A DNA stretch of 48,998 nt from Gemmatimonadota bacterium (GTDB lineage: Bacteria > Gemmatimonadota > Gemmatimonadetes > Gemmatimonadales > Gemmatimonadaceae). The DNA lies in assembly GCA_003136975.1 (NCBI GenBank), contig PLEG01000335.1, positions 1-48,998 on the forward strand, given 5' to 3'. Position numbers and translations under genes: made by a program. Below the pieces are notes generated by a model that ran no database searches, was not told the DNA's origin, and saw only the letters and a program-made list of their open reading frames with translations. Below are positions 18,292 to 29,933 of this stretch, one piece after another (the stretch's first letter is position 1; each line of letters starts with the position of its first letter).

Positions 18292-19803
18292 TCACCCGAA
18301 TAGAGCAAGCTGCGCGCGAGTTGGTACGGGGGAAGCCAGCACGGCTGCCGTCTGCTCCGTGGTCGCAACCTTCCCCGCCTCGCCTATGTGCTCCACAATC
18401 TCACTGGACGCTACCGACCCTGCGCGCCCGGTCGATCGAGCGATCACGTCCGCGAACAGTTCGACGTGGACACCTTGCCCAACGACCTCGCCGGCGGTTG
18501 TCATTGCATCGCCCAGCTCATAAGAGTCCGGCACACCGTTGAACCGGCGCATTTCAGATAGGGTGAGCCAGCGGTACGTATCCGGTCGTGAGGGATGCGG
18601 AACAACGGGTGAGTCACCCTGACCCGCGAGCATTCTCTTTTTGAGGGCGCCTACCGCCTTTGCCTCCAAGTCGATCGTTTGGATTCCGAAGCCATTCCCC
18701 TTGGCGCCCTGCTTCTCGGCATGGTCGAATACCCAAGCCTTGCTCTCACGATCGAACCACTGACTGTCTGTGACCTCTGTGTCGAGGTACTCGCGCACGG
18801 GTCGGGTGGCCTCGCGCTCCTCTGGGAATGGTTCGAACCGGCTGCCATCCTCGGGAGTCTGGGCAACCATGATGGTGCGCTTCCGCTTTGTGGCATATCC
18901 ACAGGTGCTTGCATCCACCACTCGGCAGTCAACCGCGTACCCCATTCGTGAAAGAGCACCCCGAAGCAGGAAGGCAGTCTCACTAGTGGCGAACCCCGGG
19001 GCTTCCTCGATCACGATAGTCCGTGGATTAGTTCTTATGACTATCGCGAAAGCCCATGCCGCCATGTCGCCCAATGGGTGAGCGGTTGCTGGTAAAGTCC
19101 CATCGCGCTTCTGCCCGCCCGACCCTTTCGCCTGACGGGTAGCCATGCTCCATGGTTCGCACGGGATCCCCATCGTGAGTAGCTCGACCTTGGGGAGGTC
19201 GGCGAAGGCTGCCTCGTGTACGCTCATGCAGTACATGGATGCAGTGGGATGGTTCTGCTCATAAATAGCCGCGTAACGCTCGTCCCACTCCACAGCGAAC
19301 CTCGGGGTGAAGCCGGCGAGTCGAGCAGCCTCGGTCAGTAGCCCGCCACCAGAGAACACCGACCCCTCGCTACCATCACGGAGGCGCGAGGCAATACGGC
19401 GATCGAGCTCCGGTCGGGTAATGACTATCCGCCCTTCCTCGACTCTCACATGTATCGCTGCCCCGTCGCCGAATAGCTGGCGAAGGATGGGCGCGTTGAG
19501 ATCGATGACAGGTACACGGTGCGCGGTGTCATCACTCCTCCCAACCGTCTTGGCTGACACCCGATTCCCTGTCGGCATTGAGACCGGTACGATTTCGAGT
19601 GCCGCACTGTCACCATCGCCGGAAGTCGTGAGGCTCAGGTACACCCCCGGCAGAAAGCCAGCTCGTGAGAGGTACCTTCCCTGCGCGTAGTATCGCGGGT
19701 TCCCCTTCGCGCTACCCAGCTTGGCGGCCGTTACCCGGACAGCCATACGCCGGCGAGCGGTCGAGTTGAAGGAGGTTCCTGCTGATGGTGTGGCTACTGA
19801 CAT
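18292..19803 (-). CDS. DNA cytosine-5 methyltransferase
   Basis: EGSVFSGGGLLTEAARLAGFTPRFAVEWD (motif I), GIPCEPWS (motif IV PC), RKRTIMV, and the C-terminal LTLSEMRRFNGVPDSYEL...VGQGVHVELF motif. Confidence 0.85.
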   Translation of the reverse strand: MSVATPSAGTSFNSTARRRMAVRVTAAKLGSAKGNPRYYAQGRYLSRAGFLPGVYLSLTTSGDGDSAALEIVPVSMPTGNRVSAKTVGRSDDTAHRVPVIDLNAPILRQLFGDGAAIHVRVEEGRIVITRPELDRRIASRLRDGSEGSVFSGGGLLTEAARLAGFTPRFAVEWDERYAAIYEQNHPTASMYCMSVHEAAFADLPKVELLTMGIPCEPWSMATRQAKGSGGQKRDGTLPATAHPLGDMAAWAFAIVIRTNPRTIVIEEAPGFATSETAFLLRGALSRMGYAVDCRVVDASTCGYATKRKRTIMVAQTPEDGSRFEPFPEEREATRPVREYLDTEVTDSQWFDRESKAWVFDHAEKQGAKGNGFGIQTIDLEAKAVGALKKRMLAGQGDSPVVPHPSRPDTYRWLTLSEMRRFNGVPDSYELGDAMTTAGEVVGQGVHVELFADVIARSTGRAGSVASSEIVEHIGEAGKVATTEQTAAVLASPVPTRAQLALFG

Positions 19804-20094
19804 AGGGATGGTCCGCGGTAGGGGTGACACCTTCAGATGCACCCGCGCACCCCCACCGTCTCCCGATCAGATATCAACGGACTACTTCGACACCTACTCG
19901 ACCTGTATTAGGAGACCAAGGTGTCCAGGCTCCCGATCGCCGCAGGTTCATGACGCATGGCCACCCCGTAGATAGTCCGTCCGATACACCCCATCCCCAA
20001 CGGGTACCATGCTCTCAATACTTAACCGCCCCGCCTCCGATCGCTGCCGATACCCTCGCAGTACCATGACCCATAACCCAAAGACCACACCTGT

Positions 20095-20384
20095 GGCGCG
20101 GCCACGCGCCGCGAATCTCAATGATTACAGAGGCTACAAGACCGTGTGGTGTTGCGCTCGGGTACGCCGTGGTCAGTGAACAACACGAGTGCCGCGGAAC
20201 GCGGCGCGGTCTCAAGACCCAGCCGGCCCGCCGGCGTGAGACCCTCACTGTTACCGACCCACTCGATCGCGAACCGGTGTCGCGTTCACGCGACGCGGAC
20301 TACAAGAGGGCATCCGGTACTCCGGCGCAGACCGGCCCAATCGCCGACGGGTCAACGACCACACCAGTGTCGCGGCTACGCGAC
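20095..20384. repeat. four hairpin repeats about 90 nt apart, GNCGCG-N3/4-CGCGNC
   Basis: GGCGCG-GCCA-CGCGCC (20095), GCCGCG-GAA-CGCGGC (20191), GTCGCG-TTCA-CGCGAC (20279), GTCGCG-GCTA-CGCGAC (20369). Confidence 0.7.
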
Positions 20385-20520
20385 GCGATTCTCAATAACC
20401 TACGAGAGCCTCGCGATACGCTGAGGTCACCCGGCAGCCGGGAGGCTGCGTTCGACTGGACCTCGGGAAGAGACAGCACCTCGATCCAATGACCGCCACT
20501 CAAGGCAGAAGGCGCCCCCG

Positions 20521-20658
20521 CTGTACCAGCCTCGGATGCGACGAGGCTCTGGCTGTCCGCCCAATCTCAACCGAGCACATCACTCCAACCACCGAACCGG
20601 AACTCCAGGCATGAACCGCCCCTGCTGTACCAGCTACGGATGCGACGAGGCTCTGGCT
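20521..20658. repeat. 34-nt direct repeat, two copies (20521-20554, 20625-20658)
   Basis: CTGTACCAGC[CT/TA]CGGATGCGACGAGGCTCTGGCT, 2 mismatches. Confidence 0.9.
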
Positions 20659-21470
20659 CTCCCAGTTTCAATCCCCCATTACCAATCTGCGAACAGACTT
20701 TCACTCGTGTACCACCTACCAGACTCACGTCAATAGCAACAGCACCGCGACCACAGCACGAAGTGATGATTGAGACTTACATCATCCAAGGTACCCACCA
20801 CACCCTCAGCCTCGTCGGGCCGACCACATATGCACCACTACACACCATATGACCGGGTTTTGCGCAACGATTCGTTTTTGAAGGAGATGATCATTTAACA
20901 TGTTGAAACACAAGCGCTTGCATGAGCATGTTCGATAAGTATCACAGCCATTTGAATATTCAAATCACCGCCACTCGATTAGAAGCAAATCAACCGTTCC
21001 AATGGATACGGTGTTATTTGCACAGTGTGAAATACCAAAGAAGATGAGAATTGCTCAAACTCGATGATCTGCTGGTAATACTCTGGAGTCATAGGCGTTC
21101 ATCATCAGTGTGCGAAGCAATGTACTTGACCATTAGAGTATCGGCGATAACCGAGTTGGGTTGCACGTCTGCGCCATGTGCCCCATGAATGGCCACGAAC
21201 GATGCAGACGTATTGGGTGCGCAAAGCGGATCCACTCCACTGAGACTTTCACTGTGCGTCTCGGTATTTAAGTGTGGCCGGCTGCGGATCGAACTCTATA
21301 TCGATCTGGTCAAACTCGTGAAGCACGAAGAGGTCGTGCTCGTGGAGAGACTCGTAACACGCGGATCCAATTGTGGTCTTGCGGCTGGGGAGCCGACCGG
21401 TAACGCTCACTTAGCTACGGCGAGCCTCTCGGATGGACACGACTGCCTCTCAGTTGAGGTACGCAGCTAT

Positions 21471-21539
21471 TCGCATCAACTTAGGTGTTTTCCGCAGTCA
21501 GTCGCATCAACTTAGGTCATTTTTCTCGCCTACTTAGGT
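21471..21539. repeat. iteron-like direct repeats (TCGCATCA)ACTTAGGT
   Basis: ACTTAGGT cores at 21479, 21510 and 21532; the first two share 16 nt TCGCATCAACTTAGGT. Confidence 0.75.
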
Positions 21540-21611
21540 CTTTTTCGACTAGCAGCGGCACTGCTTGTCCCATCATATTTTAGAAAGCATATCTAAAACA
21601 AAACGAAGAAA

Positions 21612-21642
21612 AGGCCACGGTGATTTCACCATGGCCTTCTGC
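21612..21642 (-). terminator. terminator of the minus operon ending at 21686
   Basis: AAGGCCACGGTGA/TTCACCATGGCCTT stem; minus strand then reads TTCTTCGTTTTGTTTTAG. Confidence 0.7.
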
Positions 21643-21685
21643 TTATTGATCTTTACCCTACGGAGTTTCTTTCGAGATTGCCTAA

Positions 21686-22921
21686 TTAACTTGCCAACGC
21701 CGAACCCTGCTTGGGTGATGCGGCACTCGCGAGCATCGCAATCAACGATGAACGCACCTGTGGATCGAGATGCCCCTCAACCTGTTTGAGTAGTTCACGA
21801 CGACTACGTGACCACCTGAAACCAGAGGCTGATGGGAGGACGTTCACAGTCGAGTCCCCCACCCCTCCGAGCTTCTTCATCACGATCCGTCGTACGTGCT
21901 CTACTCGTTTCGAACTCCGATGATAGCAGATCACTTCGACCGGAGCAACCCGCCGTGCCGTCGTGAGAACACTCGAGAGGTGTTTCATTGATATGGCACC
22001 ACGTCCCACAAGTAGCGCTGGAATCTGGTCCGCCGTTGGCGGAAGGAGCCCCCACACACTCTCTGGATTCTCGAATCGCACGAGTCCGTCTCTGAGCGCT
22101 TCTGTAACCGAACGAGTCCGAGCGCCCAACGATTTGCTTCGGTCCAGCGTCCCGAGACCCCTTATCCAGTCTGCGCCGCGTACAAGCTTCCACCCCGATA
22201 GTACGCGCTCCAGAATCAAATGAACGAGGGCCAATCGCTCCACGAATGCACTCCTCGTTGCGTCGCTCCAGTCACCGGCAACACGGTCGGCGCCAAACGC
22301 TTCGACTGCGAGAGACCATCTCGCATCTGGCACTAGCAGATAGGATCGGCCGAGCAAACGTCCGAGGCGAAGATCACTACTCTTGTCGCGGCGGAGCACA
22401 CCGACCCGCTGAAGTGCTGCGACACGCATCGTGTAATAACGCTGAGACGCACCACCAATACACTCACTCAAAGCAACCGCGGTACGCAGGTCGATCACGC
22501 CGAAGACGCCAAGCAAGTCGACGATCACCTTTGAATGGTGATTGCCCAAATACTTCGCTTCTGGTTCCCTGCTGGTCCGAAGCCTGTGAACGAGGTCGCG
22601 TTTTGGTAATGCAGCGGCACGTTCACTAGCTCCTGCTTCAGCCTTGTTATTGTCAAGAGATCCGTCGGCTGCGGCATCAATAGACGCTCGGATTCTGCCG
22701 GGCGTGTGAACCGATTGCGATATCAACGGCGACGTTCCATGATCTAGCGGGGTTTCTCGCTCGGACTGAATAGGCAAGAGCGTCGGCAGAATCGGATCGA
22801 TCGCTATACTCGCCTCCTCGTTATTAACCACTGGGCGCACCACTGCGGTGGCGCGTCGCTTCGGCCGAGTAGACCGTGCGAGAGTATCACTACTTGATGG
22901 GAGGCTGCTTTGGTTCGGCAT
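21686..22921 (-). CDS. replication-relaxation-like protein with winged-helix region
   Basis: KVIVDLLGVFGVIDLRTAVALSECIGG...YYTMRVAALQRVGVLRR...GRSYLLVPDAR, and genomic position beside a coupling ATPase. Confidence 0.45.
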   Translation of the reverse strand: MPNQSSLPSSSDTLARSTRPKRRATAVVRPVVNNEEASIAIDPILPTLLPIQSERETPLDHGTSPLISQSVHTPGRIRASIDAAADGSLDNNKAEAGASERAAALPKRDLVHRLRTSREPEAKYLGNHHSKVIVDLLGVFGVIDLRTAVALSECIGGASQRYYTMRVAALQRVGVLRRDKSSDLRLGRLLGRSYLLVPDARWSLAVEAFGADRVAGDWSDATRSAFVERLALVHLILERVLSGWKLVRGADWIRGLGTLDRSKSLGARTRSVTEALRDGLVRFENPESVWGLLPPTADQIPALLVGRGAISMKHLSSVLTTARRVAPVEVICYHRSSKRVEHVRRIVMKKLGGVGDSTVNVLPSASGFRWSRSRRELLKQVEGHLDPQVRSSLIAMLASAASPKQGSALAS

Positions 22922-29257: not shown

Positions 29258-29307
29258 GATGCTCACTCGTTGCTTCCTGTAGGATAAGCGTGAGATGATT
29301 GACGGTT

Positions 29308-29367
29308 GTCTCAAGTAAGTTGGGACCAGTCCCACATTTAGTGAGACAGTCCCATATTTACTGAGAC
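29308..29367. promoter_or_regulatory. three 19-bp operator-like repeats (one inverted)
   Basis: GTCTCAAGTAAGTTGGGAC (29308), GTCCCACATTTAGTGAGAC (29329), GTCCCATATTTACTGAGAC (29349). Confidence 0.8.
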
Positions 29368-29497
29368 CTGACACTAAGTCGTTTACTCAGAATAACTTAC
29401 GTATCCAAGCCGGACTCGGTACCTTTTCGTGGAAGCTTTACCCGGTAAAGATACAACCTGGGGTGAGCCATGGTCATCATCCTGGATGTCGAATCCA

Positions 29498-29933
29498 GTT
29501 CGGCAGCCGAACCGGCTTCGAGTGAGTGACCCCGTGCCGCCCTGCCCCTCCCAGTCTGAGTCTGATAAGTAGCAGAACCTAAGCGCTGAACAGGCTACTC
29601 TCCACCGACTCAAGCTTCCCTCTTGGGGGCGTTCTTGCTGGAGGGACATCAAGCGTTGAGTTCGGCAGCCGAACCGTTCCATCATAGTCGCTAACTCTCG
29701 CTCACTAACCAGATGGGCAGCTACCACTGAGTTCGGCTGCCGAACCGAGTTGTAGCTGGCGGTTCGGTTCAGTGCCCGCTGTTTAGGCTCCTTTTGGGTT
29801 GGCGTGGAGATAGCTGTGTGTGTCAGTTTGCCAACGATCCGAGCAATGGATCCGGCGAAGTCCTGACGCTGGGAGTCCATAGTGCTCTATTCCAAATCAC
29901 TCGACGAGTCGCGCCTGGGTTCGGCAGCCGAAC
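29498..29933. promoter_or_regulatory. candidate parS array, four palindromes GTTCGGCWGCCGAAC
   Basis: 29498-29512, 29660-29674, 29731-29745, 29919-29933; directly upstream of parAB. Confidence 0.85.

Follow-up and report, generated by a model that had tools for sequence, protein, structure and literature searches.

Gene-free DNA on a large plasmid-like element of a Gemmatimonadota bacterium from a peat bog contains a tandem repeat, now decayed. Four units of this repeat, A to D, form hairpins with closely similar stems. They are the best-kept portion of a degenerate tandem array, about 700 bp in length, and this array immediately precedes the gene of an orphan C5 cytosine DNA methylase. Our preferred reading, to which we assign a probability of roughly 0.3, is that the + strand of the array folds and acts at conjugative entry, upstream of a putative establishment block. 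The action as a single strand we infer from the stems, and a role in transfer is speculative and drawn by analogy with known leading-region elements; readings of the array as a relic, as a structured RNA or as a set of double-stranded DNA sites are nearly as likely. The first-pass annotation had offered an RNA, an origin or transfer structure, or a protein-binding array; the noncoding, hairpin-forming nature of the region holds, and no evidence is decisive among the three functions. Features are listed below by their positions in the window, that is, the whole stretch of 48,998 nucleotides that was analysed, with hairpins in square brackets.

18292-19842, minus strand: C5 cytosine DNA methylase gene (orphan), its start adjoining the array, reading away from it
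19843-21685, no strand assigned: noncoding region containing the array, with A+C skew
20013-20018, + strand: TCTCAA tail of a degenerate unit 5' of unit A, in phase, 103 nt ahead of A's tail
20080-20122, + strand: unit A, ACCACACC-T-[GTGGCGCG GCCA CGCGCCGC]G-AATCTCAAT, hairpin 20093-20112
20177-20217, + strand: unit B, [GTGCCGCG GAA CGCGGCGC]G-GTCTCAAG, hairpin 20189-20207
20208-20243, + strand: extra stem, unit B only, GGTCTCA (20208-20214)/TGAGACC (20237-20243) around GCCGG-CCCG-CCGGC, from the MFE fold
20264-20306, + strand: unit C, [GTGTCGCG TTCA CGCGACGC]G-GACTACAAG, hairpin 20277-20296
20354-20396, + strand: unit D, ACCACACC-A-[GTGTCGCG GCTA CGCGACGC]G-ATTCTCAAT, hairpin 20367-20386
20492-20695, + strand: 104-nt units E, two copies here and three in the sister plasmid
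20565-20570, + strand: TCTCAA tail of unit E1
21027-21590, no strand assigned: decayed mini Tn7-like element, left end about 21027, right border approximate

The array extends over approximately 20000-20700 and comprises about eight phase-locked units with a period of about 88-104 nt. It thus exceeds the limits of 20060-20420 first proposed for it, which enclose the four hairpins; the repeat continues beyond them on both sides, with TCTCAA at 20013 and 20565 and the 104-nt units at 20492-20695. TCTCAA tails occur on the + strand at 20013, 20116, 20210, 20390 and 20565, spaced by 103, 94, 180 and 175 nt, or one or two periods. Five of the 16 + strand copies in the window fall within these 552 nt, where none of 2000 shuffled sequences yields even four. 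The tail had earlier been described as common to all four units; A, B and D match it exactly, but unit C carries ACTACAA at that place. Internal similarity is also clear from the best 30-mer match within the region (26 of 30 positions; never above 22 in 200 shuffles), from the 86% identity of units A and D across 44 nt, and from the 67-nt cores of units E (20492-20558 and 20596-20662), which are 84% alike. The stem is not conserved between the E copies, and in the outer units generally the hairpin is missing or different, while between the four hairpins the sequence has diverged past recognition and their eight paired positions have been retained.

A sister plasmid is present in Gemmatimonadetes bacterium fen_1247, on contig PMEM01000004 (196,270 bases), the ends of which do not overlap. 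It is 99.8-100% identical to the window apart from one additional 104-nt unit, and the second 104-nt unit of the window corresponds to the junction of the second and third units of the sister. The array length therefore changes by recombination, unless a unit was collapsed during assembly. Tandem duplication and unequal recombination may thus have built the array, with four units retaining the 8-bp hairpin. The two metagenome-assembled genomes carrying these near-identical plasmids are assigned to separate species within a single genus, which points to recent transfer or misbinning.

The four hairpins, described earlier as lying about 90 nt apart, were recovered at the positions listed above. 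Their stems follow the formula GTGnCGCG-loop-CGCGn'CGC, giving 8 bp including one constant T-G wobble, and the loops of 3-4 nt (GCCA, GAA, TTCA and GCTA) differ in sequence and length as had been noted. The frame said to be shared by the units is found in them, although most of the GTG and GCG that had been placed beyond the stem belongs to it. The second stem reported for unit B is real and occurs in that unit only, in competition with a local hairpin, GGTC-TCAA-GACC. Between 20060 and 20420 there are five perfect stems of at least 6 bp against 0.43 expected, a number reached by none of 2000 shuffles, and when both strands of the 196-kb sister contig were compared, the + strand of the array proved to be its densest 400 bp for hairpins of at least 8 bp. 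No second array of such hairpins was found in the other searched parts of the contig.

Because of the constant T-G pair, which turns into A-C on the opposite strand, the + strand is the better folder: minus-strand stems of units A to D reach just 6 bp, and this difference supports action as a single strand. Relative to shuffled sequences the + strand folds with z-scores of -2.6 as RNA and -3.3 as DNA (none of 100 shuffles in either case), and the minus strand more weakly, with -1.6 and -2.4, respectively. The isolated hairpins A to D, folded as RNA, range from -12.2 to -15.7 kcal/mol.

A compensatory change had been claimed for one base pair of the stem. It is present, with pair 4 reading G-C, C-G, T-A and T-A in units A to D, but it is the only one of eight pairs that varies, the other seven being invariant, and its covariation score is equalled in 39 of 500 shuffles. 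Pairing is kept in all 32 cells of the four-unit alignment and is abolished when the partner is shifted. We consider the covariation suggestive of pairing, with thin support and little weight by itself. Template-switch repair is able to maintain perfect palindromes without selection. Since the units are four paralogues with a single informative pair, and such correction offers a neutral alternative, the pattern does not amount to proof of pairing.

The strongest competing explanation is that the array is a satellite-like repeat in decay and currently functionless, in which duplication and template-switch correction keep some palindromes perfect. We regard this as possible, though short of an even chance. 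It accommodates the one-unit difference between plasmids that are otherwise almost identical, the outer units without a stem, the dead Tn7-like element adjoining the array and the failure to find the array elsewhere in the collections searched; less easily explained are the eight paired positions kept four times over despite the divergence of the intervening sequence, and the TCTCAA tails that stay in phase in five units. Should the array prove to be without function, it would still usefully illustrate how hairpin arrays that resemble covarying RNA can arise by tandem duplication.

A more tentative possibility is a structured noncoding RNA, transcribed from the + strand divergently from the methylase gene, whose hairpin modules would bind a protein or small RNA as a sponge or regulator. 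The constant wobble, G-U in RNA, and the better + strand fold are both consistent with such a transcript, as are the noncoding state of the region and the richness of its + strand in A and C over about 1 kb (about 19.8-20.9 kb). Against it, no Rfam family matched at its gathering score, neither a promoter-like site nor a + strand terminator was detected in 19700-21750, and the covariation is confined to units A to D, no homologue having been found in the genomes searched.

The third alternative, which we judge rather unlikely, is an array of protein-binding sites in double-stranded DNA, serving as a methylase operator, a second partition site or replication iterons. Palindromes recurring at fairly even intervals in front of a gene would suit this role, and the point at which cumulative GC skew is lowest on the contig, one of several near-equal minima, lies about 3 kb or less from the array. 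However, a dimer site needs no symmetrical base-pair change, and its spacer would here be 3 or 4 nt long; the symmetrical change and the short loops fit pairing within one strand better, and together with the better + strand fold they speak for a folded single strand rather than a double-stranded site. Moreover, parS-like sites and iteron-like repeats are already present at 29.3-29.9 kb and constitute a better replicon candidate than the GC-skew minimum at the array. The former are four copies of a 15-bp palindrome, GTTCGGCnGCCGAAC, at 29498-29933 just upstream of parA/parB, with a fifth at 177546 of the sister contig, and they probably represent the parS cluster of a ParABS system. Adjoining them at 29305-29375 are three iteron-like repeats, GTCTCAAGTAAGTTGGGAC and, in opposite orientation, GTCCCACATTTAGTGAGAC and GTCCCATATTTACTGAGAC, which possibly mark oriV. 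Like iterons and parS clusters, the array repeats a motif between plasmid genes, but it differs from them in its spacing of about 90 nt and in its hairpin-type symmetry.

Other known classes of element do not account for the array. A protein-coding repeat, already disfavoured in the first-pass annotation, is contradicted by the A-C distance of 184 nt and the 3-nt loop of unit B, which place the units in different frames (C and D are not in the frame of A), by array reading frames no longer than those in shuffles, and by the six differences between A and D, of which, compared by eye in a shared frame, one falls at a third codon position. Rfam 15, searched in E-value mode, gave one irrelevant weak match, ARAGORN predicted no tRNA genes and TRF reported nothing for the array. 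Integron attC arrays are likewise series of imperfect palindromes, but here cassettes are lacking, as is any GTTRRRY box in 19843-20800, and the sole RYYYAAC, at 20020, lies outside any hairpin. The repeats are too diverged for a CRISPR locus, with a period of 88-104 nt, and no cas family was found among the scanned ORFs. REP and other small palindromic repeats also combine a short conserved hairpin with conserved flanks; they are dispersed, whereas this array is confined to a single tandem locus on one plasmid, and in genome G000 the covariance model scored 44-56 bits at A to D alone and at most 23 bits at the next best site.

The carrier is plasmid-like or otherwise conjugative and, judged by its protein families, looks like a conjugative plasmid. 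It encodes ParA, ParB, a DnaG-like primase, a TraD/TrwB-type protein, a type IV secretion system (T4SS) coupling protein, TrbI and TrbL, the last with a match slightly under its curated cut-off; searches of the element revealed neither a relaxase family nor an oriT. The array lies between the coupling-protein side and the orphan methylase, which opens a co-oriented block that continues with an N6-methylase, RadC, DUF7007, SSB, ArdC, another DNA methylase and PRTRC-type genes, nearly all in one orientation. The partition genes and parS-like sites, the DnaG-like primase, the T4SS genes and this co-oriented SSB/ArdC/RadC/methylase/PRTRC side together support a transfer setting for the array.

In leading regions of conjugative plasmids, methylases, SSBs and anti-defence genes are all oriented according to the transferred strand and have single-stranded DNA promoters upstream (PMC11541004), and Frpo precedes the orphan methylase gene of M.EcoGIX (PMC7736820). 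Noncoding hairpins just before the gene of an orphan DNA methylase and an establishment block in one orientation, with SSB and ArdC, recall Frpo and ssi of F and ColIb-P9. Both gene content and orientation here fit a leading region; neither relaxase nor oriT was located. Frpo and ssi carry the -35 and -10 elements in a hairpin that define these single-strand promoters, whereas the present hairpins are short and GC-rich, lack such elements and form a tandem array; no sigma-70-like promoter (9 of 12 matches) was found in 19700-21750 on either strand. With promoter elements absent and relaxase and oriT not found, we do not assign the array to Frpo.

If the leading-region rule of transcription from the transferred strand applies, the + strand of the array would be the strand that is transferred. 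It would fold on entry directly before the first gene of the establishment block, and the hairpins could be bound by SSB, RNA polymerase, a primase or a plasmid protein and thereby initiate or control transcription at an early stage or synthesis of the complementary strand. This reading is weakened by the invariance of seven of the eight pairs, by the absent or altered hairpin of the outer units, by the alternative of template-switch repair and by the lack of a second array in the searched parts of the contig. It is doubtful that the array further represents a new type of hairpin element, acting as a single strand and controlling early expression or strand conversion where the establishment block begins in conjugative plasmids of Gemmatimonadota, with tandem units in place of one promoter-mimicking hairpin. 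If functional, the array would be a single-strand regulatory element beside an anti-restriction-type methylase on a Gemmatimonadota plasmid; to our knowledge, conjugative plasmids of this phylum have hardly been described.

Searches for further arrays led back to the sister plasmid. A scan for the hairpin-plus-tail pattern yielded 117 stretches in 85,462 species genomes and three in viral contigs, and clustered matches in one of these 120, the sister plasmid; an array that had diverged to different stem sequences would escape the scan, and a looser hairpin pattern is unspecific in GC-rich genomes, where a backwards control matches too. The covariance model detected no second array in 180 genomes of the family and elsewhere gave single matches of at most 30 bits. 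The array DNA matched none of the plasmids and phages searched, no diverged homologue was found in the plasmid, phage, viral and genome collections searched, and the array is absent upstream of a C5 methylase orthologue (52% identity) in genome G015. Relatives of the neighbouring proteins were found in neither viral contigs nor plasmids.

On the far side of the noncoding region a gene for a 411-aa protein (21686-22921, minus strand) adjoins both the array and the TraD-like gene. Neither Pfam nor PDB gave a sequence match for the protein, which lacks clear relatives. On visual inspection it resembles a winged-helix DNA-binding protein, and its single-sequence model (pLDDT 38) is too poor for use. 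Directly after this gene, at 21609-21640 on the minus strand, there is a strong intrinsic-terminator-like hairpin of 14 pairs.

The mini Tn7-like element is dead and is a neighbour of the array, separate from it. It contains a tnsA pseudogene with three stops (about 21240-21497; 72% identity over 86 residues) and three end repeats of the type CAACTTAGGT at 21479-21545, resembling TnsB sites. An intact Tn7-like relative occurs in the congener G003 (L009, 7239-13628), where it encodes TnsA, TnsB, TniB and an 827-aa protein that combines a TniB-type ATPase with a TniQ domain.
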